From: an unicellular cyanobacterium SU3
GTDB taxonomy: Bacteria > Cyanobacteriota > Cyanobacteriia > Cyanobacteriales > Microcystaceae
Direction of reading: 5' to 3'
NCBI GenBank assembly: GCA_002172675.1
Contig: NETF01000181.1
Location: 1 to 44,390 of the forward strand
Length of the DNA stretch: 44,390 nt
Below are positions 12,497 through 44,102 of the stretch, in pieces. Within the stretch, counting starts at the first letter, position 1. The number at the start of each line of letters is the position of its first letter. The notes below the pieces were generated by a model. It saw only the letters and a list, made by a program, of their open reading frames with translations, was not told where the DNA came from and ran no database searches. The translations under genes were made by a program, and so were the position numbers.

Positions 12497-12606
12497 ATAT
12501 TATTATTCTCCTTGTCAGTTGTCGATATTTTTTCTTACAGAAGCAATAGCTTAATCAAGATCAAGCCTATTCCTTAAATAATGGAAAATTCCAGCACAGA
12601 GAAGTG

Positions 12607-12924
12607 TTATTTAAACTTCTTAGTGGCGTTTTCAAAAGATGCTTGCAAGTCTTTCCAAGCCAACTGAAATCCTACTTGAATATCTTTCCAAGCATCTTCT
12701 CCTGCCTTTTGCATTTCCTCTAATTTACTAAAGGCGGCATCTCTTTTGGCTGTTAATTCTTCAATTTGACTATGATATTCGATTTCAGTATCGGCTTTTG
12801 CCTGTTTGGCTTTAGCTTTTAGCTCATCAATTTGGGCATCAAGTTTTTCTAATTGAGCTTTTACTTTTTCTTCGTAAGCTTGTTTACTTAAGTTTTGTTC
12901 GTTTGGTGGTGTTTGGGCAGCCAT
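12607..12924 (-). CDS. Coiled-coil protein, upstream tandem paralogue
   Basis: The same length (105 residues) and layout as its neighbour at 12179-12496, with about 20 substitutions, mostly conservative and concentrated at the two ends. It begins MAAQTPPNEQNLSKQAYEEK and has AAGGAG shortly before the ATG. The 110-base spacer between the two copies has no strong terminator, so they could be co-transcribed. The order suggests a tandem gene duplication. Function unknown. Confidence 0.75.
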   Translation of the reverse strand: MAAQTPPNEQNLSKQAYEEKVKAQLEKLDAQIDELKAKAKQAKADTEIEYHSQIEELTAKRDAAFSKLEEMQKAGEDAWKDIQVGFQLAWKDLQASFENATKKFK

Positions 12925-17542: not shown

Positions 17543-18268
17543 TTATTGAGAACTAATTAATACAAATCCCCTCGTTTTTTTAGAAACCGAATCAATAGTA
17601 TTGGTGGCTTTCCAAAGGTCTTCTGCTTTGACCCAAACGGGGGGATATTTGTAACGAGAAACGTCTAAAATTAAAAAGCGATCGCTTTCTTGATTGTAGG
17701 CTGCAATAGGAGAAATATGTCCCCCTCTTTCTTGCCCAATAGTAGCCCTTAAATAGTTCACTAAAACAAAATTATTCCCTTGTTTTAAATTATTAATAAT
17801 TTGCTGGCGAAATTCTTGTAAACTGACTTCATCCCCATGATAAACTTCAACATCAAGGGAATAACTTTTTAATAAACCGCCTAATTCTTGTAAGGTCATT
17901 CCTTGTCGAGAAACGGTTTCTTTTGTAATAATAGTTTCTGTTTGTGGGTTATCAAAAAAATTATCTTGAGTAAAGCGATGATACATAACCCATTCTGTGG
18001 CTTTTGGTGCAGGAATAGACAAAGCATTTAATACCATTACTATACTTGCAACCCCACAAAACGCTAAGTTTTCTTGAGTTTCAAATTGAAGACTTAAAGG
18101 GATATAATCTTGACGAGCATTACTTTCTATTAGTAACGTTTCCCCTTGAGAAGAATTAAAATTAATCAAATTCTCATGCAGGGGTAATTTTGTTTGAGCA
18201 AGGATTTGACTCGGAATAAAACCAACCCCTAACAACATAACTTTTGCAATTAGCTTTTTAATCTTCAT
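17543..18268 (-). CDS. Exported phytochelatin-synthase-like cysteine peptidase
   Basis: A 241-residue protein with a signal peptide (KIKK, hydrophobic core, ILAQ at about 25) and the phytochelatin synthase core. The papain-like triad is visible as Cys71 (FCGVAS), His184 (GGHISPIAAY) and Asp202 (LDVSRYKYPP). Prokaryotic homologues such as the Nostoc protein lack the C-terminal metal-sensing domain, as here, and mainly cleave glycine from glutathione or its conjugates. The signal peptide suggests a periplasmic role. It overlaps nothing but lies five bases after the amidohydrolase stop, so the two are probably one operon. Confidence 0.85.
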   Translation of the reverse strand: MKIKKLIAKVMLLGVGFIPSQILAQTKLPLHENLINFNSSQGETLLIESNARQDYIPLSLQFETQENLAFCGVASIVMVLNALSIPAPKATEWVMYHRFTQDNFFDNPQTETIITKETVSRQGMTLQELGGLLKSYSLDVEVYHGDEVSLQEFRQQIINNLKQGNNFVLVNYLRATIGQERGGHISPIAAYNQESDRFLILDVSRYKYPPVWVKAEDLWKATNTIDSVSKKTRGFVLISSQ

Positions 18269-30248: not shown

Positions 30249-30866
30249 TTAATCATGTTTAAATTGATCAATACTACTAGACAAAATTCCTAAAATTTTA
30301 TTCAGATCAGACAAATAATATTCAGTTAAATCAATATAAACCTTAGCATCTTCTAACTTCAAAAAACGCCAGTTTGTCCCTGAAGTAACTACCCCTAAAA
30401 TCATAGAAATATTATTGTTTTCTTTTTGATTAAAAATTTTTGCCGCTAGCATTTCAGCAATACATTGACCTAACCCTGCATTCAAGTCTTCTTTTTTTGC
30501 TTCTACCAAAGTAATAATAGGAGCAGAAATAATTAATTTTTCAGGAGAATGGGTAATTAAAAAATCACATACACCATTTAATTCTTGAGTTTCATCAACT
30601 GTAAAATTAATTCCAGAAAATAGGTTGATTTCGTTCGTAAAATGACGTTTTAATTCTACTAAAATAGGGGCAATAATCATCTCTGATCGTGCTTTTTCAC
30701 TATTACTAGCAATAGCAATAGGTAAATTATCTTGTAAAATTGTTTGTAACAGTTCACTACTATTAATCGGTTCAATATCTGCAAAAATACCAAGGTTTTC
30801 AACAGTAGTTAGATTAAATTTTTGTTTAACTTGCTCCAAAGTGAAATTACTGTAAGACATAAACAT
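30249..30866 (-). CDS. PD-(D/E)XK-nuclease-like protein
   Basis: A 205-residue protein of a type common and often multi-copy in cyanobacteria. The core suggests a PD-(D/E)XK fold: an N-terminal helix with conserved E (SEMIIAPILVELK), then GVCDFLI with the Asp, IITLVEAKKED with the E-x-K pair, and LGQCIAEMLAAKIF as the following helix. No partner or specificity domain is seen. It begins inside the tail of an Uma2 relic: GAGG lies 4-5 bases before the first ATG and about 10 before the second (Met3), so either may be used. Confidence 0.62.
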   Translation of the reverse strand: MFMSYSNFTLEQVKQKFNLTTVENLGIFADIEPINSSELLQTILQDNLPIAIASNSEKARSEMIIAPILVELKRHFTNEINLFSGINFTVDETQELNGVCDFLITHSPEKLIISAPIITLVEAKKEDLNAGLGQCIAEMLAAKIFNQKENNNISMILGVVTSGTNWRFLKLEDAKVYIDLTEYYLSDLNKILGILSSSIDQFKHD

Positions 30867-31182: not shown

Positions 31183-31270
31183 TTACTAACACGGAAACAC
31201 TCATAATAGGGATCATCGTCATTATAATAGGTAAGCTAGAATACCCAAACAGCGATCGCTATATCTCAAT

Positions 31271-33493
31271 ATGAGTCAACAGCAACCCTTAAGCCAACTG
31301 TTAACCCAAGCAGTACAAAACTTGGTTAAATCAAACCCCAAGACACAGGTGTTAAAAAAAGGGGCAAAAATCCCAGAAATAAGGGTCAAAGAAAGCCCAA
31401 AAGAAAAACTTATCACCTACGCTTTAATTGGCGATCGCTATATCATTGGCCGGAGTTCGAGACACACCGACATCAAGGTACTCAACCCTATTGTCAGTCA
31501 AGTCCATTGTTCTTTGCATCGAGATCAAAAGAACCCCCGTCACTTCATTATTAAAGATGAAAACTCGACCAATGGCATTTATTTAGGCAAACGACGGGTT
31601 AAAAACTTATCCCTGCGTCATGGCGATACCCTTACCTTCGGACCACCAGAATTAAACGATATTGCCACCCTGACCTATCATAATCCACCGCCAAAATGGA
31701 TGCAGTGGCTACGATACGGTTTCTATGGCACCGGATCACTGATTACCCTATTAATAGTCTGGTTACTGTGGGAAACCAGCAAAATTAACGTTCATCCCTT
31801 ACCTTCAGGAGTTAGCGGTCCAGTGGTAGTTTACGCTAGGGATGGAGAAACCCCTTTGAGTCCCCTCAATGACGATCCTCACCACGAAATTGACCGTTTA
31901 AAGGACTTTTCTCCTCATTTGACCAAAGCAGTCATCGCCTCAGAAGATAGTCGCTTCTACTGGCATTTTGGCGTTGATCCCTACGGTATTTTAAGAGCGA
32001 TGGTAGTCAATTTTAAAGATGATGGTATTCGTCAAGGGGCCAGTACCCTCACCCAACAACTTGCCCGTAGTTTATTCCCAGAAGTGGGACGGGAAAACAC
32101 CGCTCAACGTAAAATTAGAGAGATTATTGTCGCCTTAAAATTAGAAGCGGTTTATAGTAAAGATTTTCTGCTCAGAACCTATCTTAACCGTGTTTATCTG
32201 GGTGTGGGTAACTATGGGTTTGAAGATGCGGCCCAATTTTATTTTGATAAGTCGGCCACTGAACTCGATATTGCCGAAGCAGCCACCCTCGTAGCGATGT
32301 TACCGGCCCCTAACTTATATAACCCAGTACAAGATTATGACACTTCGGTACAGTTAAGAAATCGAGTCATTGATCGCATGGCAACCTTGAGAATGATCTC
32401 CCCCGAAGAAGTAGCCCGGGCCAGGCGATCGCGCATTAACATCAGTCCCGAAGCCAGAAAAGCCTTAGCTAACAGTAAAGCCCCCTATTTCTACGCCCAC
32501 GTTTTCCAAGAGTTACGGCAGTTATTAGGGACAGAAATTGCTAAAGAAGGTAACTTTATTGTAGAAACTGGACTCGATTTAAACAGACAAGCATTAGCCG
32601 AAAAAAAGTTACAAGAAGCGGTTAAAACCCAAGGATCAACCTACGGCTTTTCTAACGGGGCCATGGTGACGTTAGATACTCGTACCGGGGAAATCTTAGC
32701 CCTAGTAGGCGGTACCGACTATAAACAAAGCCAGTTTAACCGCGCTACTCAAGCCAAACGACAGCCTGGATCAACCTTCAAACTGTTTCCTTATGCTGCA
32801 GCCCTAGAAAAAGGAATTTCTCCCGGAAAATCCTATAGTTGCAGTGGCATTAGATGGCAAGGTAGGGCTTATAAACCCTGTGAACGCAGTAGTGGCGCAA
32901 CGGATATGTATGGAGGGATGGCACAGTCAGAGAATACTATCGCCTTACAAGTAGCCAGAGAAGCCGGGTTAAACCGGGTGGTCGATGTTGCCCAACGGTT
33001 AGGGATCAAGTCTGAATTAGAAGCCGTTCCAGGGCTAGTTTTAGGGCAAAGTGAAGTCAGTGTTTTAGAAATGACGGGGGCCTATGCTGCTATGGCTAAC
33101 AACGGTGTATGGAACCGTCCCCACGCCATTCGTCGCATTTTAGACGGGGGGGACTGTACTAATAATGAGGACTGGCGTACTTGTCGAGAAATTTATAATT
33201 TTCAGACCGATAATAGTGCTAGACAACAGGCCATCTCTCCCCAAGTTGCCCAAACCATGACCCGTATGTTGCGAGGTGTCGTCAGTAATGGAACCGGCCG
33301 CGCTGCGAGTGTTGGGTTAGGGGAAGCAGGGAAAACCGGCACCACCGATCGCGCGGTTGATCTTTGGTTTATTGGCTATATTCCCCGTAATCACGTAGCT
33401 ACAGGGGTTTGGTTAGGGAATGACGATAATTCAGCTACAAAAGGCAGTAGTGGTCAAGCAGCAGCCCTCTGGGGAAACTATCATCGTCCTTAG
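31271..33493 (+). CDS. Class A penicillin-binding protein with N-terminal FHA domain
   Basis: A 740-residue bifunctional peptidoglycan synthase. Order: FHA domain (about 50-125; YIIGRSSRHTDI, NSTNGIYL, RHGDTLTFG), one membrane helix (about 150-168), GT51 glycosyltransferase (catalytic Glu225 in IASEDSRFYWHFG; QGASTLTQQLARSL), and transpeptidase with Ser501-x-x-Lys504 (PGSTFK), Ser553-x-Asn555 and Lys688-Thr-Gly (KTGTTD). All catalytic residues are present. The FHA domain faces the cytoplasm and binds phosphothreonine, suggesting control by a Ser/Thr kinase. Such FHA fusions occur in cyanobacteria. The gene stands alone. Confidence 0.95.
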   Translation: MSQQQPLSQLLTQAVQNLVKSNPKTQVLKKGAKIPEIRVKESPKEKLITYALIGDRYIIGRSSRHTDIKVLNPIVSQVHCSLHRDQKNPRHFIIKDENSTNGIYLGKRRVKNLSLRHGDTLTFGPPELNDIATLTYHNPPPKWMQWLRYGFYGTGSLITLLIVWLLWETSKINVHPLPSGVSGPVVVYARDGETPLSPLNDDPHHEIDRLKDFSPHLTKAVIASEDSRFYWHFGVDPYGILRAMVVNFKDDGIRQGASTLTQQLARSLFPEVGRENTAQRKIREIIVALKLEAVYSKDFLLRTYLNRVYLGVGNYGFEDAAQFYFDKSATELDIAEAATLVAMLPAPNLYNPVQDYDTSVQLRNRVIDRMATLRMISPEEVARARRSRINISPEARKALANSKAPYFYAHVFQELRQLLGTEIAKEGNFIVETGLDLNRQALAEKKLQEAVKTQGSTYGFSNGAMVTLDTRTGEILALVGGTDYKQSQFNRATQAKRQPGSTFKLFPYAAALEKGISPGKSYSCSGIRWQGRAYKPCERSSGATDMYGGMAQSENTIALQVAREAGLNRVVDVAQRLGIKSELEAVPGLVLGQSEVSVLEMTGAYAAMANNGVWNRPHAIRRILDGGDCTNNEDWRTCREIYNFQTDNSARQQAISPQVAQTMTRMLRGVVSNGTGRAASVGLGEAGKTGTTDRAVDLWFIGYIPRNHVATGVWLGNDDNSATKGSSGQAAALWGNYHRP

Positions 33494-33634
33494 TGATTTG
33501 AGTTCTGGGTTAGATCATATGCAAGGAAATAATGGGTATTTTATTATTAGCCTTTGAACTTATCGCGAATTCACGTTAAGTTACAAATCATTTAATTTTA
33601 TTTTTTATGATATTGTAACTATTCTCTTAAAATT

Positions 33635-34375
33635 ATGAATGTTTCTTCATCAATTTCAATAGTTTTATATACGTCTGTTTTAACTTTTTATCTGGTCTGG
33701 GGTTCTACCCTAATTCCTAAATTCTATCAGGCAATTTTTAATAAAATATTTGGTTTTAAAAATATTTTTCTGGTTATTCTTTATTATTTACCTTTCGTTT
33801 TAATTGATTATTTTCTACCCAATTATCTAGAACAATATACCTTAATATCCATTTATTTAAGCATTGGAATAATATCTTGGTTGGCTTTATTTTCAAATAT
33901 AAAATATAAAAATAACTTAGGTGAATTATTATTTACTTCTCGTTGCATACAAAGAAAACTTTATTTTACCATTCCATTAACATTGATCTGTTTATGGGTG
34001 ATTTATAAATATGTACTTGTTTTCTTTCAAGGCTCCGAATCAGCCTTTATACCAGAAATATTAGGAACACAAATCAATCCCTATTTATATTCTATTAGTC
34101 AACTTTTCATCCTCTTGTCCATAATGATTAACCTCCATCTAACTGGCTGGAATAAACTAGAAATTAGAAGTCAAGGTATTTGGTATGTTTCTGAAATTAT
34201 TTGGCAAGATATTGTCGGTTACGGTTGGTCAGAAGAAAAAAATAACCTCTTAATTATTAAACATCTTAATGGATATAAAAAAGAAATACAATCGAAAATC
34301 AAAATATACCCAAAAGAAAAAGAGCAGATCAATAATATTTTTTATGATAAATTGCAGATATTATCTGATAGTTAA
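33635..34375 (+). CDS. Integral membrane protein with DUF5673-like C-terminus
   Basis: A 246-residue protein with about five hydrophobic helices (residues 1-175) and a cytoplasmic tail. The tail (EIRSQGIWYVSEIIWQDIVGYGWSE, then LLIIKHLNGYKKEIQSKI) resembles the DUF5673 or YcxB-like membrane-adjacent domain, with the W-x-D-I-x-x-Y-x-W pattern. Function unknown. The composition is more AT-rich than that of the neighbouring PBP gene. It stands alone. Confidence 0.55.
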   Translation: MNVSSSISIVLYTSVLTFYLVWGSTLIPKFYQAIFNKIFGFKNIFLVILYYLPFVLIDYFLPNYLEQYTLISIYLSIGIISWLALFSNIKYKNNLGELLFTSRCIQRKLYFTIPLTLICLWVIYKYVLVFFQGSESAFIPEILGTQINPYLYSISQLFILLSIMINLHLTGWNKLEIRSQGIWYVSEIIWQDIVGYGWSEEKNNLLIIKHLNGYKKEIQSKIKIYPKEKEQINNIFYDKLQILSDS

Positions 34376-34700
34376 ACTCAAAAAAACTCCGATAAAAAAG
34401 CTAAAAAATAGCGTAAGTTTGGAGTAAAAAATTACTTTTTAAAAAGTCTTTATTGAATTTCTAGCTTATACCAAACTTATACCAATTCTAAAAAATAGCT
34501 CTTCGAGATAATATTGATTCTAAAAACTTAGACTATAGACATGACTGACTACAGCACTATCTGAGTGAGAATTTAAAATAATTGAGCAAAATTTAAGCGA
34601 TCGCTTCCACAAAATCCTAAAAATGCTGTTTGATATTTAGTTTACAAGCAATCTTTCGTGAGATACTATCTAGCTATCCACAAATTTACTGTATGACCCG
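34376..34700. other. Gap before the sulfotransferase cluster
   Basis: A 325-base, AT-rich gap with no gene seen. It holds an ACTCC/GGAGT pair (34386-34390 with 34421-34425) that may end the upstream gene, a 14-bp perfect palindrome ACTTTTTAAAAAGT at 34434-34447, a direct repeat of acttatacca near 34470-34490, and one HIP1 site. The promoter of the six-gene cluster should lie here; I could not fix it. Confidence 0.4.
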
Positions 34701-35681
34701 ATGAAAGTATTAGTAACAGGTGCAACAGGATTTATTGGTAGTTATTTGACTCAAATGCTAGTTAATCAAGGATATGAGGTCAAAGCTCTTATTCGTCCTT
34801 CTAGTCACTCAAATGCTCTTAAAGCTTTAGGTATTGAGGTGATACAGGGTGATATTCAAGATATTGATAGCCTTAAAAAAGCAATGAAAGGCTCTCAGCA
34901 AGTTTATCATGCAGCAGCCCAACGGACTCAGGTCAAAGTTCCTAAAAAGACTTATTATTCAGTGAACATAGAAGGAGCAAGAAATCTAACTAACCTAGCT
35001 CATCAACTAGGAATCGAACGACTGGTTTATTTAAGCAGCACGGGAGTGTACGGAAGAATGCCTAAAGAGGTAAAAGCAACAGAAAAAACGCTTCCTAAAC
35101 CTGACACTTATTATCGAACCACAAAATTACTAGCTGAACAAATTTTTTTAACCGCTTATCAAAAATTAGCAATTCCTATCGTTATTGCACGGTTGTCAGG
35201 GGTGTGCGGAATCGGTTCTTTGAGTAATTTAGGATTAATTCGAGCGATCGCAACAGGTAATTTTCGTCTAATTGGTACTGGAGATAATTATTACCATTTA
35301 GGACATATTACAGATATTGTTGAAGGATTACGGTTATGTGCAGAAACTCCCAATATTGAAGGAAACATTTATAATATCGCAGGAAAACATCCCATTAAAG
35401 TCAAAGACCTAGTAAAAATAATCGCCCAAAGCTTAAATATTGAACAAATAAACCGCCATTTACCGATTCTACCCTATCAAGTATTTGAGACTATGACTGA
35501 GTTTGTTTACCATACCGCAGGCAGACAATTACCAGGTCATCACCGCTATGATATGTTTTTGGCTAATCGGAATATTGATATTTCTAAAGCGATGACAGAA
35601 TTAAATTATGCACCGCAAGTTTCATCAGAGGTGGCAATTACAGAGGTAGTTAGTTGGTATAAAGAAAAAGGGTTTATATAA
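34701..35681 (+). CDS. NAD-dependent epimerase/dehydratase (extended SDR)
   Basis: A 326-residue extended short-chain dehydrogenase. The N-terminal Rossmann motif is GATGFIG (residues 7-13); the catalytic Tyr-x-x-x-Lys is YRTTK (about 142-146), preceded by LSSTGVYG with the active Ser. Family members modify nucleotide sugars, hopanoids, flavonoids or sterols; the C-terminal half has no sugar-specific hallmark I can name. It opens the 34.7-41.6 kb co-directional cluster, and 48 bases separate it from the glycosyltransferase, so a sugar-modifying step is likely. Confidence 0.85.
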   Translation: MKVLVTGATGFIGSYLTQMLVNQGYEVKALIRPSSHSNALKALGIEVIQGDIQDIDSLKKAMKGSQQVYHAAAQRTQVKVPKKTYYSVNIEGARNLTNLAHQLGIERLVYLSSTGVYGRMPKEVKATEKTLPKPDTYYRTTKLLAEQIFLTAYQKLAIPIVIARLSGVCGIGSLSNLGLIRAIATGNFRLIGTGDNYYHLGHITDIVEGLRLCAETPNIEGNIYNIAGKHPIKVKDLVKIIAQSLNIEQINRHLPILPYQVFETMTEFVYHTAGRQLPGHHRYDMFLANRNIDISKAMTELNYAPQVSSEVAITEVVSWYKEKGFI

Positions 35682-35729
35682 GTTTTATTGTTGTTTTATT
35701 GAAATTAGCGAAACTATTAAGATAAATTC

Positions 35730-36635
35730 ATGAACTTACCCTCAATTTCAATTATTATTCCTACTTATTCTCGTCCGCAGCAACTATCAGATTGTTTAGC
35801 TGCTTTATCCCGACTCAATTATCCCCCTAGTGATTTTGAGGTGATAGTTGTGGATGATGGAAATCCAATACAGTTAGACGAAGTGGTCAAACTTTGGCAA
35901 TCTAAACTACTAATAACCCTTTTAAAACAATCAAATCAAGGACCTGCTGCTGCTCGAAATTTGGGGGCTGATCATGCTGAGGGACAATTATTAGCCTTTA
36001 CAGACGATGATTGTACTCCTGCTACGGATTGGTTGCAAAAGTTTTCCGAGCAGTTTTCTAAAAACCCCAACAGTTTAATGGGAGGACAAACCATTAATGC
36101 TTTACCGAATAATCTCTATGCTACCACCAGTCACCTGTTAGTTGATTTCCTCTATGACTATTACAATGGGAAGGATGCAAAGATTCGTCAGACCCGATTT
36201 TTTACCTCCAATAACTTTAGTATTTCTAAACAAATATTTCAGCGTCTTGGGGGATTTAGTCTAAAATTTCCTCTCGCTGCTGGGGAAGATCGGGAATTAT
36301 GCGATCGCGCTTTACAATTGGGCTACGAAATGCTCTATGTTCCTGAAGCATTAGTTTATCATGCTCATCACCTCACCTTTGTGCAATTTTGCCAACAACA
36401 TTTTAACTACGGTAGAGGTGCAATTCATTTTAATCAAGTTAGAGCAACCCGAAACCTAGGAAAAATCAAGCCAGAATCATCTCCTTTTTACCTCAATTTA
36501 TTGCTTTACCCTTTTAAAAAAGGCTTTTCTTCTCGTTCTTATTTAATCTCAATGTTATTATTTTTAACCCAATTCGCCCACAGTGCTGGCTGTTTTTGGG
36601 AAAGACAAAAAGCATCTAATCAATCCACTGTTTAA
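35730..36635 (+). CDS. Family 2 glycosyltransferase
   Basis: A 301-residue GT-A glycosyltransferase. It begins SIIIPTYSRPQQLSDCLAAL, has VIVVDDG, NQGPAAARNLGA, and the metal-binding FTDDDCTP (DxD equivalent), then GGFSLKFPLAAGEDRELCDRALQLG, where the E-D pair is the usual catalytic-base region. C-terminal hydrophobic patches may touch the membrane. It would add a sugar to a lipid-linked or growing glycan. The stop is 11 bases before the next gene, so it is operonic. Confidence 0.9.
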   Translation: MNLPSISIIIPTYSRPQQLSDCLAALSRLNYPPSDFEVIVVDDGNPIQLDEVVKLWQSKLLITLLKQSNQGPAAARNLGADHAEGQLLAFTDDDCTPATDWLQKFSEQFSKNPNSLMGGQTINALPNNLYATTSHLLVDFLYDYYNGKDAKIRQTRFFTSNNFSISKQIFQRLGGFSLKFPLAAGEDRELCDRALQLGYEMLYVPEALVYHAHHLTFVQFCQQHFNYGRGAIHFNQVRATRNLGKIKPESSPFYLNLLLYPFKKGFSSRSYLISMLLFLTQFAHSAGCFWERQKASNQSTV

Positions 36636-36646
36636 TTGTAATCATC

Positions 36647-38311
36647 ATGAAAAATCCTGTTATTGCTATTGGTTTAGATTCGGCAGATCCCGTTTTACTC
36701 GAAACATGGATTGAACAAGGCTATTTAAAAAACCTAGCTCAACTGCGATCACAAGGGAGTTATGGGCGACTGAATAATCTAGTTCACTATGCACAACAAA
36801 CGACTCCATTTTGTATGAGTGAACCTTTATGGGTCATTTTTAACACAGGTTGCTTGCCCGATAAAACAGGATATTGGAGTGCTATTGAATACTATAAAGA
36901 AAATTATGGAGTGAAATATGACAATGTTAATGGAGGTTATAATTATCAAGAATTTTCTCCTTTTTATACTAACCTGAAAAACAAACGGATCGCTGTTTTT
37001 GATCTCCCTTGTACAAAAATGTCTCAACAGGTTGAAGGGGTACAAGTTCTTGGTTGGGGAGGACATAGCCTTCTGACTCCAAGTGAATCTATTCCCCCTC
37101 ACCTTTTACCAGAATTGAGCCAAAAATACGGAAAAGATCCCATTTATTTGAATGAATTAGGAATTTGGTGGCATAAAACTTTTAAAGACTCAATACTAGA
37201 AAAATTAAAAGGCAATATTGTCAAACGTTCGGCAATTTGCCAAGATTTACTAGGCCGTGAACCTTGGGATTTATTCTTAACTGTCATCAGTGATACTCAC
37301 AGAGCCGGTCATGATTTATTTGGTTATGGTCAATCCCATCATCCTCTTTATCCTACTTTTCAGAAAGAACAAAATTCATCTGATGTACTATTAGAATTTT
37401 ATCAACAAGTTGATGAAGAAATAGGAGAAATTTTAACAAAAGTCTCGGATGATGCTTATATTTTAGTGTTTTCCCTTCATGGGATGGATGCGAATATGGC
37501 GGATTTATTCACCATGCTCTTTTTACCTGAGTTGCTTTATCGGTTTAATTTTGGAGGACAAAGTGCGATCGCTCCAGGTCAAATTGATCAGTTTCCTTCT
37601 CCTATGATTACTGAGCCGGTGAGACATTCTTGGTTAGGGGAAGTTTGGGCGAGAAATACCCCTCAAAATTGGATACAAAAGCGATTAAAATCTTGGACAC
37701 CTAGTCAATTTCTCCGTTCTCCCAAAAACGGTTTAGATTGTCCCTTTTCTTTGTTAGAAACTTCAGACGAAGATGGGTTAGCCTGGATGCCGTCACGCTG
37801 GTATCGACCACTCTGGCCGAAAATGAAAGCATTTGCCTTGCCCACGTTTACTGATGGTCAGATTCGGATTAATCTAAAAGGGAGAGATCCTAAAGGAATT
37901 GTCGAGCCGTCTGAATATGATTCATTATGTCAGCAAATTAGTCAATTTCTTTATCAGTTAGTAGATGCTAGAACGAAAAAACCGATTGTCAGAAAAGTAA
38001 TTCGTACTCGTCAATCTCCAACAGAAGATCATTCTAAGCTACCTGACGGAGATTTAGTGGTTCTTTGGCATGAAACTCCCACAGATGTGGTAGACAGTCC
38101 AGAATTTGGCCGCATTGGCCCGGTTCCTTATTTTCGATTGGGTGGACATCGAGGAAGGGGTTTTTTAATAGCAAAAGGAGAAGGCATCGAGGCTAATTCT
38201 ACCTTTGGCAGTGGTCAAATAGTCGATTTAACTCCTACTATTTTAAAGTTAATGAATGTGCCAATTCCTGATTATTTTGATGGTCAACCTTTATTTAATC
38301 TTCACTCATGA
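36647..38311 (+). CDS. Alkaline-phosphatase-superfamily enzyme (type I phosphodiesterase-like)
   Basis: A 554-residue protein of the phosphodiesterase/nucleotide pyrophosphatase branch. Metal Asp11 is in GLDSADP; the nucleophile position is Ser58 (MSEPLWVIFNTG, where relatives usually have Thr); metal Asp and His are in SDTHRAGHDLFG; the late metal His is in LGGHRGRG. The usual SDHG motif reads SLHG, so one metal-ligand Asp is Leu. The enzyme may be altered or use another ligand. No signal peptide is seen. It may cleave or transfer phospho- or sulfo-groups on the glycan; this is inference. Its stop overlaps the sulfotransferase ATG (ATGA). Confidence 0.8.
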   Translation: MKNPVIAIGLDSADPVLLETWIEQGYLKNLAQLRSQGSYGRLNNLVHYAQQTTPFCMSEPLWVIFNTGCLPDKTGYWSAIEYYKENYGVKYDNVNGGYNYQEFSPFYTNLKNKRIAVFDLPCTKMSQQVEGVQVLGWGGHSLLTPSESIPPHLLPELSQKYGKDPIYLNELGIWWHKTFKDSILEKLKGNIVKRSAICQDLLGREPWDLFLTVISDTHRAGHDLFGYGQSHHPLYPTFQKEQNSSDVLLEFYQQVDEEIGEILTKVSDDAYILVFSLHGMDANMADLFTMLFLPELLYRFNFGGQSAIAPGQIDQFPSPMITEPVRHSWLGEVWARNTPQNWIQKRLKSWTPSQFLRSPKNGLDCPFSLLETSDEDGLAWMPSRWYRPLWPKMKAFALPTFTDGQIRINLKGRDPKGIVEPSEYDSLCQQISQFLYQLVDARTKKPIVRKVIRTRQSPTEDHSKLPDGDLVVLWHETPTDVVDSPEFGRIGPVPYFRLGGHRGRGFLIAKGEGIEANSTFGSGQIVDLTPTILKLMNVPIPDYFDGQPLFNLHS

Positions 38312-39207
38312 CTTTTTTAAAAAGTATATCTTTCTCATCTCCTAATAAGAATCATACTTTGCCCGATTTTATTATTATTGGTGCGATGAAATGTGGTACA
38401 ACTAGCTTACACTATTACCTCAATTGCCATCCTGAAATTTCGATGTCTCGACAAAAAGAGTTAGACTTTTTTATTGAGGAAAGAAACTGGAATAAAGGAG
38501 TAGATTGGTATCAGTCTCAATTTAAAAGTCAAGAAGGAGTAATTTGTGGAGAAGCTTCTCCTCATTATACTTCTTATCCTATTTTTAAAGGGATTCCTGA
38601 AAGACTATACGATACCCTTCCCCATGTTAAATTGATTTATATCATTCGAGATCCAATTGAACGAATTTTATCACAATATATCCATTTATATGCTGAAGAG
38701 CGAGAACATAGAAATATTGAAGAAGCTTTGATGGATTTTGAAGAGAATCCCAATAACCCTTATATTTGTCGTAGTCGATATTATTTTCAATTAGAACAAT
38801 ATTTATCTTATTTTCCTTCTGAGCAAATTTTATTAATTACTACAGAAAACTTAGCTAAATTTCCTAACAAAACTCTGAAAAATATTTTTAAATTCTTAGG
38901 AGTTAATGAAAACTTTGATATGAACCAGGTTACTAAAAAAAAGCTACACCAAACTAAAGATAAACGATGTAAAACATCTTTTGGAAATTTCATTTCTCAT
39001 CTTCCGATTATTCAGAATATAAATAAGTTACCTTCTTCTATAAGATTTCGTTTAAATAAAATGATTTATCGACCTTTTTCTCAACCTGTAGAACAACCTA
39101 TACTAAATAAAAACTTATATGATCGATTATATAATTATTTAAAAGAAGATATCGAAAAATTAAGAGATTATATGGAGGGAGATTTGAAAAAATGGACAAT
39201 TGGATAA
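38308..39207 (+). CDS. PAPS-dependent sulfotransferase, first of a tandem pair
   Basis: A 299-residue sulfotransferase of the heparan-sulfate/NDST-like domain family. The 5'-phosphosulfate loop is IIGAMKCGTTSLHYYL (about 23-38), with the catalytic Lys in MKCGTTS; the 3'-phosphate site is YIIRDPIERILSQY (about 112-125) with Arg and Ser. It would move sulfate from PAPS to a sugar hydroxyl or amine in the cytoplasm. Translation is coupled to the upstream phosphatase-superfamily gene. The next gene is a close paralogue. Confidence 0.92.
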   Translation: MTFLKSISFSSPNKNHTLPDFIIIGAMKCGTTSLHYYLNCHPEISMSRQKELDFFIEERNWNKGVDWYQSQFKSQEGVICGEASPHYTSYPIFKGIPERLYDTLPHVKLIYIIRDPIERILSQYIHLYAEEREHRNIEEALMDFEENPNNPYICRSRYYFQLEQYLSYFPSEQILLITTENLAKFPNKTLKNIFKFLGVNENFDMNQVTKKKLHQTKDKRCKTSFGNFISHLPIIQNINKLPSSIRFRLNKMIYRPFSQPVEQPILNKNLYDRLYNYLKEDIEKLRDYMEGDLKKWTIG

Positions 39208-39237
39208 TATAACTTTTTCTATTTCTCTTTTACATAA

Positions 39238-40140
39238 ATGACTAAAGCAATGAATAAATTAATTCAGAATTTATCTATTAAAAAAAGTAGAAAACAAAAT
39301 TTACCCGATTTTATTATTATTGGTGGGATGAAATGCGGTACAACTAGCTTACATTACTACCTTAACTGTCATCCTGAAATTTCTATGTCACAGGAAAAAG
39401 AACTCAATTTTTTTATTGAAGAAAGAAACTGGTACAGAGGAGTTGAATGGTACAAATCACAATTTAAAGGTAACGCTAAAGTTTATGGAGAAACTTCTCC
39501 AAATTATACTTATTATCCTAATTGGCAAGGGGTTCCAGAAAGACTCTATTCTATTATTCCTCATGCTAAATTGATTTATATTCTACGAGATCCAATTGAG
39601 CGAATCATCTCTAATTATGTTCATCGATATGCTTGTAGAAGAGAACATAAAACCATAACAGAAGCTTTAATAGATTTTCAAGATAATCCTCATAATTTCT
39701 ATGTTTGTCGAAGTCGTTATTATTTACAATTAGAACAATATTTACGTTATTTTTCATTTTCTAATATTTTAATTTTAACGACTGAAGAATTAGCAAATCA
39801 TACAAAAAAAACATTGCAAACTATTTTTAGTTTTTTAGGAGTAAGTAATAATATAAATATTATAAATTATCAAAAGAAACTTCATAAATCAATTTATAAA
39901 CGAAGAAATACAAATTTAGGAAATGCTCTAGCCCAACTTCCAATAATGACTCAAATTAATCATTTACCTCCTAGTTTAAGATACCATGTGAATAAATTAA
40001 TTTATTTTCCTTTTTCAACGGCTGTTCAAAAACCTAAACTAGAACCTGATTTACGAATTAAATTAATTAACTATCTTAAAGAGGATATTGACTGTTTACG
40101 AAAACATACAGGAAAATCTTTTAACGAATGGTCTATGTAG
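39238..40140 (+). CDS. PAPS-dependent sulfotransferase, second of a tandem pair
   Basis: A 300-residue paralogue of the preceding gene, with roughly 60 percent matching residues over the aligned core by eye. PAPS motifs are intact: IIGGMKCGTTSLHYYL and YILRDPIERIISNY. The two differ most in the C-terminal third and around the acceptor-side segment (VYGETSPNYTYYP against ICGEASPHYTSYP), so they may sulfate different positions. Only 30 bases separate the two genes and eight bases separate this one from the flippase. Confidence 0.92.
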   Translation: MTKAMNKLIQNLSIKKSRKQNLPDFIIIGGMKCGTTSLHYYLNCHPEISMSQEKELNFFIEERNWYRGVEWYKSQFKGNAKVYGETSPNYTYYPNWQGVPERLYSIIPHAKLIYILRDPIERIISNYVHRYACRREHKTITEALIDFQDNPHNFYVCRSRYYLQLEQYLRYFSFSNILILTTEELANHTKKTLQTIFSFLGVSNNINIINYQKKLHKSIYKRRNTNLGNALAQLPIMTQINHLPPSLRYHVNKLIYFPFSTAVQKPKLEPDLRIKLINYLKEDIDCLRKHTGKSFNEWSM

Positions 40141-40147
40141 ATAAATA

Positions 40148-41596
40148 ATGAGTATTAAAAAAAGAACGATTCAAGGCATATTTTGGTCAGGGATTCAAAA
40201 TTGGGGTAGTCAAGCTGGATCTTTTATTATTTTTTTGATATTAGCTCGTTTATTAACTCCCAAAGACTTTGGTTTAGTAGCTTTGGCTAATGTTTTTATT
40301 AACTTTATGCAAATTTTTTTAAATCAAGGTTTTACTTCAGCATTAATTCAAAAGCAAGATATCAACCAAAAACATATCGATACTGTTTTTTGGATACAAG
40401 TCTTTATTGGTTTTATTCTGGCATTCTTTACTTTTTCTGCTGCTAGTTTGATCTCTAATTTTTTTCAACAACCTAAATTAGAACCTATTTTTCAAGTATT
40501 TTCTGTTCTTTTTATTATTAATGCTTTCAGCCAAATACAAAAGACTTTACTTCAACGCAAATTTGCTTTCAAAATAATAGCTCTTCGTTCCTTACTAGGT
40601 ATTTTAATGGCAGGAATTGTGGGAATTTATATGGCATTTTCTAATTATGGTGTGTGGAGTTTAGTTGGACAACAATTTACCTATGAAGTTATGGGTGTTA
40701 TTGTATTATGGAAAGCAAGTCAATGGCGACCAAAACTACAGTTTTCTAGGAAGTATATACCAGAATTATTAAATTTTAGCTTAAATATATTAGGATATAA
40801 ATTAGTTGATTTTTTTAACCAACGCACTGATAATTTACTCATTGGTTATTTTTTAGGAGAAATTGCTTTAGGATATTATGCGATTTCTCATAGAATTTTA
40901 CAAGTAATGACGCAATTACTTATTGGTACTTTGAATCAAGTTGCATTATCAACATTTTCTCGCTTACAAGATGATCGCAATCGATTTCTTGAGGCTTTTT
41001 ATCGAGCTACTCAATTTACCACTTTACTTGCACTACCTGTCTTCTGCGGAACAATTATCCTTAGTTCAGAGTTAGTGATTACATTATTTGGAGAGAAATG
41101 GCTCGATGCTATTCCCATCATTAAAATTCTTGCTTTTGCAGGGATACTTCGTTCTGTTTCTTTCTTTCAACGCTCTGTTTTTATCGCTATCAATCAACCT
41201 TCGCTACAGTTTAAATTAGGATTACTCAATACTATTTTTAATGTAATTGCTTGTTTCATTGCAGTACAGTGGGGAATTTTGGCAGTTGCTACCGCTTATG
41301 TTATTAGTGATTATCTTGTTTTTCCCATTAGCCAAGTCCTTTTAAAAAAATTAATTTCAATTTCGTGGAAAACTTATTTATCTCAATTTTTACCCCCAAT
41401 TATTTGTACTTTAATCATGATTTTAACTGTTATGACTGTTCAACAATGGTTGACTCCTTATGTCAATCCGCAAGTAAGATTAGTAATTTGCTCAATTACA
41501 GCAATCGTTATTTATAGCTTGACACTAATCTCTATTTTTCCTAATCTATTTAAGCAAATTAGAATTTTAGTAACCCTAATTCAACCTCTTAAATAA
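40148..41596 (+). CDS. Wzx-type polysaccharide flippase (MOP superfamily)
   Basis: A 482-residue membrane protein with about 12-14 hydrophobic helices. It begins IKKRTIQGIFWSGIQNWGSQAGSF and has LARLLTPKDFGLVALA and an internal repeat around ALGYYAISHRILQVMTQLLIGTLNQVALSTFSRLQDD, both typical of the WzxC/polysaccharide biosynthesis branch. It should move lipid-linked oligosaccharide, here perhaps sulfated, from the cytoplasmic to the outer face of the plasma membrane. It closes the cluster; no Wzy polymerase is visible next to it. Confidence 0.9.
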   Translation: MSIKKRTIQGIFWSGIQNWGSQAGSFIIFLILARLLTPKDFGLVALANVFINFMQIFLNQGFTSALIQKQDINQKHIDTVFWIQVFIGFILAFFTFSAASLISNFFQQPKLEPIFQVFSVLFIINAFSQIQKTLLQRKFAFKIIALRSLLGILMAGIVGIYMAFSNYGVWSLVGQQFTYEVMGVIVLWKASQWRPKLQFSRKYIPELLNFSLNILGYKLVDFFNQRTDNLLIGYFLGEIALGYYAISHRILQVMTQLLIGTLNQVALSTFSRLQDDRNRFLEAFYRATQFTTLLALPVFCGTIILSSELVITLFGEKWLDAIPIIKILAFAGILRSVSFFQRSVFIAINQPSLQFKLGLLNTIFNVIACFIAVQWGILAVATAYVISDYLVFPISQVLLKKLISISWKTYLSQFLPPIICTLIMILTVMTVQQWLTPYVNPQVRLVICSITAIVIYSLTLISIFPNLFKQIRILVTLIQPLK

Positions 41597-41650
41597 TTCT
41601 TGTAACTCCACCACACAAAGATAAGTTGTGCCATAGCTGATTTTTTTTAC

Positions 41651-42052
41651 TTAGGTTACAGTAACTTCATAGATTTTGCCTGGACTGCATACTTGTCGAG
41701 GAGATGACTCTTTTGTAAAGACCTCACTCCAACCTCCCATTCGATCAGAATCAGGAACACGATATTTTACCCTAATGCGAATATTTTTTTCATTAACACG
41801 CTCAAGTCGCCGTGTTTCTTGCCATACTTGGTTATTCGGTATCACCTCATTAGAAACTGGTTCTGAACGCCATTTTTCGTAAGCAGGATCATAATAGTCA
41901 AGATCAATAACCTTAATTTCGTTACCAGTGTTATTGACAACTTTTAAATACACATCTTTACAGTGCCATGATGCTAAAGCTGGTGAGCTTATAAAAAATG
42001 AGCTACAAGCACTTAAAGCTAAGATAGATAGAGAAGTAACCTTACGAAACAT
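41651..42052 (-). CDS. Secreted small protein, unknown function
   Basis: A 133-residue protein with a clear signal peptide (MFRKVTSLSILALSACSSFF, cleavage near ALA, about residue 27). The mature part has two Cys (CKD and QVC) that could form a disulfide and a beta-rich body (VYLKVVNNTGNEIKVIDLDYYD; IRIRVKYRVPDS). The pattern resembles small extracytoplasmic beta-sandwich proteins; I cannot name a family. LSAC at 13-16 could be read as a lipobox, but a second hydrophobic run follows it. It is convergent with the flippase. Confidence 0.65.
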   Translation of the reverse strand: MFRKVTSLSILALSACSSFFISSPALASWHCKDVYLKVVNNTGNEIKVIDLDYYDPAYEKWRSEPVSNEVIPNNQVWQETRRLERVNEKNIRIRVKYRVPDSDRMGGWSEVFTKESSPRQVCSPGKIYEVTVT

Positions 42053-42199
42053 AATTTTTTTTGTATTATAGGTAATTTTCGGTTTTTCTGATACTCACTA
42101 TACTCGCAGTAACAAATTATGTCAGCCCCAAAATAAGTGTCTATACAAAACTCGTGTTTTGCATTTAAGTGGAAAAACATGAAATTAAGTAGAAATTAA

Positions 42200-42237
42200 C
42201 CTAAGCTTCGACCATATCAGTACAAACTAAGCTTAGG
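42200..42237. other. Inverted repeat downstream of dapF
   Basis: CCTAAGCTT (42200-42208) is mirrored by AAGCTTAGG (42229-42237) with a 20-base spacer. It lies 46 bases after the dapF stop and before the secreted-protein gene, both on the minus strand. It could be a weak terminator or a regulator site; no T tract is present. Confidence 0.35.
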
Positions 42238-42282
42238 ATATATAATTCTCTAGAAATTAAACTGTATAGTCTAGTTTACTAA

Positions 42283-43122
42283 CTATTCACCGACCACCCC
42301 TGTAAACACTGCTTCAGCAGGACCTGTCATATACAGTCGGTTATCTTGCTCAGACCATTCTATGGTTAAACAACCTCCTGGTAACTCCACCGTACAAAGG
42401 CGATCGCAATTTCTGGTCAAAACCCCTGCTACCACAGAAGCACAAGCACCAGTACCACAGGCCAAAGTAATTCCTGCCCCTCGTTCCCATACTCGCATTT
42501 TCAGATAATCAGAGCGAACCACTTCAATAAACTCCGTATTCGTCCGTTCAGGAAACACTGAATGATGCTCAAACATCGGGCCGATGGTTTCTAAAGGAAT
42601 CGTTGCCACATCATCCACAAAGGTAATACAGTGAGGATTACCCATACTCACACAAGTCACTGACCAAGACTGTCCACCCACTTCTATAGATTGATTAACG
42701 ACCTTTTCTTCTCCTTTCGTTAAGGTGGTGGGAATCTCTTTGGCCAATAAAAAGGGGTTTCCCATGTCTACTTTTACCTGTCCTTGTTCTTCTAAACGAG
42801 GGACAATGATCCCGGCTAAGGTTTGAATACGGTAAGATTTTCCTACTGTTTCAATGCCTTCTAATTTAGCTAAGAAACGGGCTAAACAACGAATACCGTT
42901 ACCACACATTTGCGGTTCTGAACCATCAGAATTAAAAATCCGCATGGTGTAATCACTCTTATCATCTCCAGGTAAGGCAAAAATGACCCCATCGGCCCCA
43001 ATCCCAAAATGGCGATCGCATAACTTTACCGCTTCTTTTGGGGATAATAAAGGGGTCGAACTGTGGCGATTGTCCACTAAAATAAAATCATTGCCTAGAC
43101 CTTGATATTTAGTAAATTCCAT
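42283..43122 (-). CDS. dapF: Diaminopimelate epimerase DapF
   Basis: Converts LL- to meso-diaminopimelate for lysine and peptidoglycan synthesis, without a cofactor. The 279 residues are normal. The two active-site cysteines are Cys73 ([10 protein letters not shown]) and Cys222 ([10 protein letters not shown]), and the N-terminal [13 protein letters not shown] is typical. It is divergent from hfq with a 110-base gap that includes a HIP1 site; dapF next to hfq is an arrangement known in cyanobacteria. Confidence 0.97.
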
Positions 43123-43232
43123 AATGAGTTCAATAAAGGATTATATAAACAATTATCAATTAATCTACAAATAAGGACAAGCGATCGCTGATAAGATAAT
43201 AAGAATAACCGCTATCTATATGTCTAAAACTT

Positions 43233-43445
43233 ATGAGTGAATTTGATACGGGGTTGCCCAGTGTTCGACAAGTTCAAAGATATATTAAAGATAAACAAAC
43301 AGTTGTTATTCAACTTGTCACGACAGAAACCATGACAGGGCAAGTGTTATGGCAAGATCCTCAATGTCTTTGTCTTAGCGATGAGTCTAATCAATCTCTA
43401 TTAATTTGGCGACACGCGCTTGTTTATATTAAACCTGCTTCTTAG
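43233..43445 (+). CDS. hfq: Cyanobacterial Hfq-like RNA-binding/pilus-associated protein
   Basis: A 70-residue Sm-fold protein of the divergent cyanobacterial Hfq group: LPSVRQVQRYIKDKQTVVIQLVTTETMTG (Sm1) and SLLIWRHALVYIKP (Sm2, replacing the YKHA of enterobacterial Hfq). In Synechocystis the homologue binds the pilus motor PilB1 and is needed for motility and DNA uptake, while canonical sRNA binding is weak. The stop is TAG; the same frame stays open behind it through comFB. Confidence 0.88.
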   Translation: MSEFDTGLPSVRQVQRYIKDKQTVVIQLVTTETMTGQVLWQDPQCLCLSDESNQSLLIWRHALVYIKPAS

Positions 43446-43580
43446 CTAGATAAAATTGCTTCTTATTTGCGTCAAAAAGAAGATGAATTTTATCGTTTTG
43501 AAACTTTTAATTCAATTCTGGGTAATCTAAGAATAACCCGTATTCACAGACTGCTCCATCTGTCAGTAAAAAACAAACCT

Positions 43581-44102
43581 ATGAGCATTCAAAAAATTGT
43601 CGAAAACGCATTACAAGATGGCTATTTGACACCCATAATGGAAGAAGAAGTCGGACGGATCTGTGAATCCGCTACAGACTTACCCATGGAAGAGTATATG
43701 GCATTAGATCGCCTCATGGGGGCTTTATTAACTGGGGACGTCAAAGCCATAGCAAGAAAACAGTTCATTAATGTCATGGAAGAATTAGTCTTAAGTGAGG
43801 CGATTAGTCAAGTTGCCGAACAAGAGTCTAAAGAATCTTGTCACCTTGATATTGGGGATATTGCTGCTTATGCTCTCAACCGTTTACCCCCCCTTTATGC
43901 TACCACTCACGAAGGAGCAAATTATCAAAGACAACGGGCAAAAGAAGAATTACAAACTTTGATCGCTCAGCAAGTTAAAGAAGGAATACAACGCTATTTT
44001 GAATGTCCTAATATTCCCAACCGACGACCCATTGAACAACAACAATATAGTGATATTCTTCAAAATATGACCGATATGCTTAAATCTCTAGCCCCTGATT
44101 AA
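43581..44102 (+). CDS. comFB: ComFB-family protein (predicted cyclic-dinucleotide receptor)
   Basis: About 173 residues. The ComFB domain is at about residues 45-150: MEELVLSEAISQV, then CHLDIGDIAAYALNRLPPLYATTHEGANYQRQ, the family core. ComFB-type proteins in cyanobacteria have been reported as cyclic-dinucleotide receptors affecting cell size, competence or motility. The ATG at 43581 gives the family start (MSIQKIVENAL); there is no good ribosome site, and an in-frame start at 43467 (TTG) would add 38 residues. It shares hfq's reading frame and probably its transcript. Confidence 0.82.
   Translation: MSIQKIVENALQDGYLTPIMEEEVGRICESATDLPMEEYMALDRLMGALLTGDVKAIARKQFINVMEELVLSEAISQVAEQESKESCHLDIGDIAAYALNRLPPLYATTHEGANYQRQRAKEELQTLIAQQVKEGIQRYFECPNIPNRRPIEQQQYSDILQNMTDMLKSLAPD

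Follow-up and report, generated by a model that had tools for sequence, protein, structure and literature searches.

Do six adjacent genes of the unicellular cyanobacterium SU3, including two for sulfotransferases and one for an alkaline phosphatase (AP)-superfamily protein with an altered metal site, belong to one glycan pathway, and what does the AP protein do in it? The genes are part of a 44,390-nucleotide stretch (contig NETF01000181.1), the whole of which is referred to as the window. We give a probability of about 0.7 to the reading that they serve, as an accessory module, a pathway for a sulfated surface glycan, within which the AP protein acts. The sulfated glycans that cyanobacteria make matter both ecologically and technically.

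All six open reading frames are intact and lie on the plus strand. The first (34701–35681) encodes an SDR-family NAD-dependent epimerase/dehydratase (Pfam PF01370 Epimerase, 2.4e-41) that is HpnA-like; HpnA is its best NCBIfam model, with 152.5 bits, which is under the cut-off of 367.65. It is followed by genes for a GT2 glycosyltransferase (35730–36635; PF00535, 5.1e-27), the AP-superfamily protein (36647–38311; PF01663 Phosphodiest, 2.9e-9), the PAPS sulfotransferases ST1 (38308–39207; PF00685 Sulfotransfer_1, 3e-19) and ST2 (39238–40140; PF00685 Sulfotransfer_1, 2.6e-20), and a MOP-superfamily flippase of the Wzx type (40148–41596; PF13440 Polysacc_synt_3, 2.1e-95). The Pfam matches of all six proteins are above the curated cut-offs. 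The flippase scores 250.4 bits against the MOP flippase model NF007773, under its cut-off of 273, and has nine transmembrane segments according to simple hydropathy, whereas flippases of this superfamily usually have 12–14. By the same measure, GT2, ST1, ST2, and the AP protein have zero transmembrane segments. The intergenic gaps are, in order, 48, 11, −4, 30, and 7 bases, with the negative value representing an ATGA overlap between the AP gene and ST1, and they are five of the seven shortest among the 23 same-strand gaps separating neighboring frames of at least 100 residues. The coordinates and Pfam matches thus bear out the initial annotation, which described a six-gene cluster running in one direction with gaps of 48 bases or less and one ATGA overlap. 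The spacing fits a predicted operon. Scans for promoters (44 versus 39.0 ± 5.3) and terminators (4 versus 4.8 ± 2.2) were at the level of shuffled sequence.

In this cyanobacterium, the six genes are accessory. In one genome of the same genus (G516, locus L145), positions 33500–41648 of the window are replaced by two bases, and the flanks 31193–33499 and 41649–42200 are matched by blastn. The missing insert also spans a reading frame at 33635–34375 with a DUF5673 match under the cut-off; in another genome (G554, L147) the DUF5673 stretch is partly present and the six genes are absent. The genes are missing from this site in all four same-genus genomes in which both flanks were seen. No direct repeats of note that would mark the ends of a mobile element were found at the boundaries (33400–42300), where the only matches were due to the homology of ST1 and ST2 or were short and AT-rich. 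The initial annotation overlooked the insertion, as well as the altered active site of the AP protein and a second, fuller sulfated-glycan locus of the host.

The gene-order search proposed in the initial annotation showed that the partners recur, in varying order, in three genomes from other genera (L039, L040, and L054), and chance adjacency was rejected on this ground. These closest loci share the epimerase, GT2, AP, and Wzx genes partly or wholly. In L039, epimerase–GT2–AP–GT2b–sulfotransferase form one run, and the Wzx gene adjoins it on the opposite strand. The order is epimerase–GT2–AP–Wzx–GT2b, then an APS kinase, in L054, and sulfotransferase–sulfotransferase–Wzx–GT2–x–AP–GNAT–GT2b in L040. 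Each locus therefore contains a sulfation gene: one sulfotransferase in L039, two in L040, and the APS kinase in L054. No sulfotransferase was found in the stretch of L054 examined, although the core is kept, and no epimerase in that of L040; therefore, neither gene is a fixed part of the set. The AP proteins of the window and the three loci form one clade with a support of 1.0, as do the GT2 proteins (L039_08, L040_05, and L054_03; support 1.0, identity 61–68%). A GT2 paralog on host contig C32 (65765–66625) is 54% identical. The epimerase is 64% identical to L039_09 and 57% to L054_02, and the Wzx protein is 51–59% identical to its partners. The L039 counterparts are part of a more extensive locus, which also encodes GT2c, an FAD oxidoreductase, and a LIC_10190 protein with 12 transmembrane segments.

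ST1 and ST2 are predicted PAPS sulfotransferases that share 57% of their residues. Both contain the 5′-phosphosulfate-binding PAPS lysine loop GxMKCGTTSLHYYL. Matches of ST1 in the PDB include 3rnl (1.3e-27) and the heparan sulfate sulfotransferase 3-OST-1 (4.6e-24), which ST2 matches at 5.7e-25. ST1 aligns to 3-OST-1 through the lysine loop and the glutamate preceding FF, and ST2 has the same motifs. The likeness to heparan sulfate 3-O-sulfotransferases thus includes overall sequence, the loop lysine, and the glutamate; by contrast, the histidine that follows this glutamate in the 3-O-sulfotransferases is replaced by aspartate in ST1 and asparagine in ST2. A recent tandem duplication in this strain is unlikely, because ST1 branches outside a group of ST2 with L039_05 (70% identical to ST2), L040_02, and L052_11 (support 0.997), which suggests that the pair is older than the splits within that group.

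The AP protein matches PF01663 with 37.4 bits versus a cut-off of 23 and has no hydrophobic segment by simple hydropathy. Its AF2 model (pLDDT 80.4, pTM 0.84) matches ENPP7, SPAP, and phosphonoacetate hydrolase in Foldseek, with ENPP7 in the first row (1.6e-8; TM 0.47 of the query and 0.64 of the target). Because the matches are loose, with rmsd of 7.6–11.5 among the 50 listed, no nearest subfamily is named. The Pfam match and the AP-like fold of the model are common to the window protein and the type I phosphodiesterase family PF01663 (NPP, phosphonoacetate hydrolase; COG3379-type). However, the canonical site is altered. Of the two-metal ligand set (D, D-x3-H, D-H, H), the residues D11, H222, H278, and H501 are kept, whereas one aspartate has become His218 and the other Leu277; the remaining site residues are S58, E59, and D216, and the nucleophile position varies across the family. 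A sulfatase reading was rejected, since matches to solved sulfatases are weak (E at least 0.026) and cover no more than the last 50 residues at the C-terminus; moreover, Ser, Thr, Ala, Val, or Gly stands at the nucleophile position rather than Cys. Defense-system models searched with the AP protein gave no match.

Residues of the site were surveyed in 96 proteins, comprising 101 members of two main clusters minus six identical copies (five from repeat contigs, plus L053_06, itself one of the bridges described below) plus the window protein. His218 takes the place of the aspartate ligand in all of them, and H222, H278, H501, and E59 are likewise conserved in 96 of 96. The second aspartate ligand is lost in 93. 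Bridges came from 12 of 16 weaker loci; L024, L030, and L031 were excluded as partial matches, and L036 because its protein is that of L020. Of these bridges, eight are canonical and four are of the altered type (L020, L021, L035, and L037), two of them without H278; all eight canonical relatives keep the full site. The protein would most likely carry out a metal-assisted phosphoryl- or sulfuryl-ester step at a three-histidine site formed by H218, H222, and H501, rather than two-metal phosphatase chemistry. We tentatively propose, with less than even confidence, that it stands for a cyanobacterial enzyme family, so far undescribed, that arose within the alkaline phosphatase superfamily. This family may have abandoned catalysis by two metals and a Ser/Thr nucleophile in favor of a single metal site rebuilt from three histidines, with E59 and E/D216 as conserved acids. 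It would serve an unrecognized step in the cytoplasmic assembly of lipid-linked glycans, and its genes recur in exopolysaccharide loci next to those for flippases, sulfotransferases, and polymerases. That the protein is instead a pseudoenzyme, acting as a non-catalytic scaffold or lectin-like subunit, is in our view unlikely. In its favor, 55 of the 96 proteins have Ala, Val, or Gly in place of the nucleophile, the loss of the second aspartate ligand points the same way, and the paralog L152_04 lacks nearly all of the ligands; however, invariance of four histidines and E59 would be unusual for a dead site, and Ser or Thr is retained at position 58 in all 41 proteins on the window's side of the tree (Ser in the window, Thr in its clade).

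Relatives of the AP protein at E ≤ 1e-140 occur in 11 of 292 genomes sampled across the phylum, including the host. Named genomes yielded 149 relatives, of which 78 loci were kept; the locus survey covered 86, which is 93 minus L051 and L052 (which lack an AP gene of the main clusters) and minus five repeat contigs. At least 68 of the 86 have glycan-assembly genes within eight reading frames of the AP gene, a lower bound given that the gene classes used miss some glycan genes and that the stretches measure 4 to 22 kb. Sulfotransferases are present in only 15 loci, and three of the 21 sulfotransferase matches are weak (E 5e-8 to 7e-6); therefore, the AP family is tied to glycans generally rather than to sulfate. 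On a Nostoc plasmid, an AP relative is located within a full Wzx/Wzy exopolysaccharide locus (sugar transferase–AP–GT2–flippase–x–GT4–O-antigen ligase–GT–WecB–xylanase–autokinase). Some relatives are outside obvious glycan loci, such as that of Planktothrix, which adjoins nadB and asnB. Relatives are annotated as "alkaline phosphatase family protein" despite the altered catalytic site. In the part of the literature searched, no paper on this family in glycan loci was found. If the protein is an enzyme, current models may lack a glycan-assembly step; if it is not, the annotation is misleading.

The initial annotation noted the absence of polymerase and chain-length genes and concluded that the product may be a glycolipid or short oligosaccharide. 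The absence holds at the cluster, where Pfam scanning of the ten reading frames in 33635–44102 recognized no Wzy polymerase or PCP, but the conclusion is not secured by it: the host genome has five Wzy_C, three Poly_export, and six Bac_transf (priming-transferase) matches, none of them on the window's contig. The cluster has a single glycosyltransferase and no priming enzyme, which counts against the reading as a sulfated-glycan module. It is plausible, at a little under even odds, that the module supplies repeat units for a sulfated exopolysaccharide of the ordinary polymeric kind; after flipping by Wzx, these would be polymerized and exported by proteins encoded elsewhere in the genome (Wzy, PCP, and OPX). 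Besides the matches in the host, this reading is favored by the scattering of exopolysaccharide genes in cyanobacterial genomes, as described in PMC4594306, by the synechan OPX gene, which PMC8205485 places on the main chromosome apart from the plasmid cluster, and by AP relatives in loci with Wzy_C (15/86), Wzc-like (13/86), and Wza-like (13/86) genes. By contrast, none of the reading frames scanned in L039, L040, and L054 belongs to Wzy_C, Wzc-like, or Wza-like clusters, and those of the related loci L190 and L191 have no match to Wzy, Wzc, or Wza references, with L190 encoding a nine-segment membrane protein of no assigned family. Since Wzy proteins often escape profiles, such absence is a weak argument.

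The same absence, beside the cluster and in the closest loci, speaks for an unpolymerized, Wzx-flipped sulfated glycolipid or short lipid-linked oligosaccharide, a product that is conceivable but that we would not bet on. The multi-pass membrane proteins of L039, L040, and L054 are Wzx, GT87, LIC_10190, or cytidylyltransferase proteins, and L040 and L054 encode GT87 proteins, a class in which the known members transfer sugars onto lipid carriers at the outer face. However, one locus without a polymerase says little when the host has Wzy genes elsewhere, and L039 could have a polymerase in its LIC_10190 protein. It is very improbable that the insert is only a piece transplanted from some larger locus, without any product in this strain. 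The empty site in four relatives and the larger locus around the L039 counterparts agree with such an origin, but the six frames are intact and tightly spaced, and host contig C32 retains homologs of GT2c, the FAD oxidoreductase, and GT2b.

Under the preferred reading, in which the genes are accessory to a pathway for a sulfated surface glycan, the following order of steps can be proposed. The epimerase would make or alter a sugar donor, and GT2 would add a sugar to a lipid-linked oligosaccharide at the cytoplasmic face. ST1 and ST2 would sulfate the lipid-linked unit with PAPS, the AP-like protein would act in the cytoplasm on this unit or its donor, and Wzx would flip it. Priming, the remaining sugars, and any polymerization would be provided by genes elsewhere, such as the locus on C32. 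Since that locus already has an ABC exporter (Wzm/Wzt) and sulfotransferases of its own, cooperation in trans is a guess. The initial proposal of a sulfated glycan assembled in the cytoplasm and flipped by Wzx is supported by the PAPS motif, the lack of transmembrane segments in the sulfotransferases, and the sulfation genes of the nearest loci; sulfation itself would take place on the cytoplasmic side. Judging from the module, genes for sulfation may move between genomes as a compact cassette that can be swapped, and it points to an AP-like family with an altered catalytic site in many exopolysaccharide loci.

Two known systems resemble the module. One is the cyanobacterial locus GT2c–FAD oxidoreductase (PRK07208)–...–GT2b, which shares the GT2, Wzx, and sulfotransferase families with the window and, in L039, includes counterparts of its genes. 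Its exporter is Wzx in L190 and L191 and Wzm/Wzt in L192 and host C32, with none seen in L193. By contrast, GT2c, the FAD oxidoreductase, and GT2b are not beside the six window genes. The other is the synechan (xss) cluster on pSYSM of Synechocystis sp. PCC 6803, the sole such cluster worked out in the literature searched, by which flippase-plus-sulfotransferase clusters are known in cyanobacteria, according to PMC8205485. Like the window cluster with its predicted sulfated product, xss combines two PAPS sulfotransferases, Wzx, and glycosyltransferase genes in a single cluster, which makes a sulfated extracellular glycan. Synechan differs in having eight glycosyltransferases, Wzy, PCP, and the regulators XssQ/R/S, whereas the six-gene cluster has one glycosyltransferase, and Wzy and PCP were not found among the ten frames scanned. 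ST1 and ST2 are 31% and 30% identical to XssA and 24% and 25% to XssE and form a separate clade, so orthology was rejected; the module has PAPS sulfotransferases and a Wzx exporter of the synechan type without XssA or XssE orthologs. The 28.8 kb annotated xss stretch has no AP-like gene, and no Synechocystis record is among the ten plasmid records that match the AP protein. The initial statement that no described pathway has this exact set therefore stands for the AP gene, which is without a match on the synechan plasmid, but not for the kind of pathway. Judged against synechan (PMC8205485), the window cluster is a variant of the known clusters that combine a flippase with sulfotransferases.

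The run of six genes proposed in the initial annotation is borne out. At 34701–41596 on the forward strand, genes for an SDR epimerase, a GT2 glycosyltransferase, an alkaline-phosphatase-like (AP) protein, two sulfotransferases (ST1 and ST2), and a Wzx flippase are separated by gaps of 48, 11, −4, 30, and 7 bases, and their matches to the Pfam models Epimerase, Glycos_transf_2, Phosphodiest, Sulfotransfer_1 (twice), and Polysacc_synt_3 all exceed the curated cut-offs. The ORF 325 bases upstream matches DUF5673 with a score under the cut-off. It is preceded by a gene for a class A penicillin-binding protein (PBP; 31271–33493, forward strand) with transglycosylase, transpeptidase, and N-terminal FHA domains, 89–95% identical copies of which are found in four same-genus stretches. 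A 133-residue ORF and dapF follow the cluster on the opposite strand. The cluster adds a variant to an already known kind, the sulfated-glycan clusters of cyanobacteria, and lies on an accessory stretch; its aspect most deserving pursuit is the remodeled AP family.

The host genome comprises 5.6 Mb in 208 contigs, and the window is the whole of contig C181. The six-gene cluster is accessory in this host. In G516, one of eight genomes of the same genus, the sequences matching the window flanks 31193–33499 and 41649–42200 are separated by 2 bases; therefore, 8149 bases (33500–41648) are missing there. In G554, the PBP gene and dapF flank a piece of the DUF5673 stretch and none of the six genes, and different ORFs occupy this interval in G531 and G534. 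The cluster is thus present at this site in none of the four same-genus genomes in which both flanks were seen. A search of all eight at E ≤ 1e-80 gave no match to the epimerase, and the sole match of ST2 at E ≤ 1e-40, in one genome, is 35% identical.

Other genes of the window include remnants of a Septu-like defence pair (498–2185, forward strand), in which the PtuA-like (498–1166) and PtuB-like (1667–2185) ORFs each cover just part of their models. The reverse strand encodes a PD-(D/E)xK-like ORF (30249–30866) that matches a CRISPR-associated PADLOC model (1.5e-52) and has a 91% copy in G554, a phytochelatin-synthase-family protein (17543–18268; PF05023, 1.7e-78), and a tandem pair of 105-residue ORFs (12179–12924) identical at 85 of 105 residues, the scanned one of which has no Pfam match.

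The partner genes of the cluster recur in its nearest relatives, three loci of other genomes. In L039 (genome G111), an epimerase (64%), GT2 (69%), AP (68%), the further GT2 type GT2b (53%), and a sulfotransferase (70%) form a run, after which Wzx (51%) is encoded on the opposite strand, with an FAD oxidoreductase and a third GT2 type, GT2c, as neighbors. Locus L054, from a Nostoc sp. NMS7 MAG, contains an epimerase (57%), GT2 (67%), AP (67%), Wzx (57%), and GT2b (51%), followed by APS kinase, GT87, and, farther along, a carbamoyltransferase. The L040 stretch (genome G187) has no epimerase and contains a sulfotransferase (62%), a second sulfotransferase (PF13469), Wzx (59%), GT2 (60%), AP (64%), GNAT, and GT2b (49%). 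All three loci include a sulfation gene: a sulfotransferase in L039 and L040, and the APS kinase instead in L054. The AP proteins of the window and the three loci form a single clade (support 1.0), and their GT2 proteins form a single clade separate from all GT2b. Because gene order and content differ among these relatives, the exact set emphasized in the initial annotation is not fixed.

Eight stretches from other genomes, fetched after GT2 and sulfotransferase searches, provided a recurring pattern of GT2c, a PRK07208-type FAD oxidoreductase, and GT2b. All three occur together in five of the eight (L190, L191, L192, L193, and L197); L198 lacks only GT2c, and L194 and L196 have only GT2b of the trio. 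The middle of the locus is variable: L190 and L191 have Wzx together with sulfotransferases there, L192 has the ABC exporter Wzm/Wzt, and no exporter was seen in the L193 stretch. The relatives of the window genes in L039 lie inside a locus of this type. Host contig C32 also carries one, which starts with GT2c (67%), FAD oxidoreductase (76%), GT2, GT4, GT2, and an unassigned ORF, continues with Wzm, Wzt, GT2, a GMC oxidoreductase (82% to L190_07), and two PF03567 sulfotransferases, and ends with two unassigned opposite-strand ORFs and GT2b (60%). Since the host has this locus, backbone enzymes from C32 may act together with the window module. The C32 locus (L189 10754–19670 and L199 1–7782) is a second, fuller sulfated-glycan locus with an ABC exporter. 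C32 also carries three adjacent sulfotransferase ORFs (L195 7850–13874; PF00685 matches at C32:19879–22209), which a few genes separate from the ATPase gene of a Wzt-type ABC transporter.

No polymerase was recognized among or adjoining the six genes, in agreement with the initial annotation, but five Wzy_C matches lie elsewhere in the host genome, together with three Poly_export and six Bac_transf matches. Given these matches, the sulfated glycolipid that it suggested is a possible product but not a secured one, and a polymeric sulfated glycan is slightly the more probable. The polymer is also favored by passages of PMC4594306, which describe the EPS genes of cyanobacteria as scattered and their sets as frequently incomplete, and of PMC8205485, which describe sulfotransferase-containing clusters as more or less partial. 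PMC13125312 states that cyanobacterial systems generally pair Wzx/Wzy or ABC machinery with sulfotransferases. However, the Wzy_C, Wzc-like, and Wza-like clusters include no ORF from L039, L040, or L054, the multi-TM proteins of which are Wzx, GT87, LIC_10190, or cytidylyltransferase. L190 encodes one nine-TM protein without an assignment, so a polymerase is possible there.

The genomic context of AP was surveyed in 86 distinct loci, with sulfotransferases detected by a local HMM. A glycan-assembly gene lies within eight ORFs of AP in at least 68 loci, Wzy_C in 15, and Wzx in 27. A sulfotransferase is present anywhere in the examined stretch in 15 of the 86; the HMM found none in the other 71, which counts against a sulfate-specific role of AP. 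On a Nostoc plasmid, AP lies between a sugar transferase gene and a GT2 gene followed by a flippase gene inside a full EPS locus. Sulfotransferases of other clades also occur one OR​F away from AP, in L087 and L124, the latter contained entirely in the same-genus stretch L208 (G552). A sulfotransferase-AP-GT4 triplet in three same-genus genomes (L206 8637–12339, L207 1–3759, and L208 672–4637) includes an AP from another branch (72–73% to L112_11) and represents a second AP-sulfotransferase pairing. On a Planktothrix agardhii plasmid (L157 3617–8869), an AP relative adjoins genes annotated as nadB and asnB, with no obvious glycan locus. Contigs L119 and L128 of a MAG titled Kiloniellaceae carry 41% AP relatives, which may reflect transfer or a binning error.

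Eight canonical relatives (L022, L023, L025–L029, and L038) were used to align the canonical set D-T-D-H-D-H-H, which falls on residues 11, 58, 218, 222, 277, 278, and 501 of the window AP; in the AP superfamily, these positions are the ligands and nucleophile. The set is intact in all eight canonical proteins. Among 96 family members, the window protein included, histidine occupies positions 218, 222, 278, and 501 in every one, and position 11 is D in 95 and E in one. Position 58 is A in 49, T in 40, V in four, G in two, and S in one, the window protein; position 277 is A in 47, V in 32, L in seven, P in five, D in three, G in one, and I in one. E59, adjoining the nucleophile position, is present in all 96 and is replaced by P or V in the canonical proteins. 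A proposed reading is one metal site formed by three histidines, in which E59 and D216 would take the acid/base roles. On the window's side of the midpoint-rooted AP tree, position 58 is T or S in 41 of 41 proteins, which suggests that their nucleophile may still function. Exceptions in the wider set are a Planktothrix relative with G11 and Q278, two G172 paralogues without H278, and tandem paralogues in G367 (L152 3927–7030), one of which has lost one of the histidines and the other nearly all metal ligands; a haloarchaeal relative has the canonical site. The structure model of AP (pLDDT 80.4) matches AP-superfamily structures, with ENPP7 in the first row (TM 0.47 of the query).

ST1 and ST2, two of the proteins behind 15 PF00685 matches in the whole host genome, are 57% identical. 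They form a clade with L039_05, L040_02, and L052_11 (support 1.0), in which ST1 branches outside the remaining four (0.997); judged from this tree, the pair probably did not originate from a recent duplication. Among solved structures, both are closest to 3rnl and heparan sulfate 3-OST-1, and they align with the latter at the PAPS loop (MKCGTTSLHYYL) and at the Glu preceding FF; the His that follows this Glu in 3-OST-1 is replaced by Asp in ST1 and by Asn in ST2. The residues compared here are the catalytic ones of 3-OST-1. Of the synechan sulfotransferases, XssA is 31% and 30% identical to ST1 and ST2, respectively, and XssE 24% and 25%.
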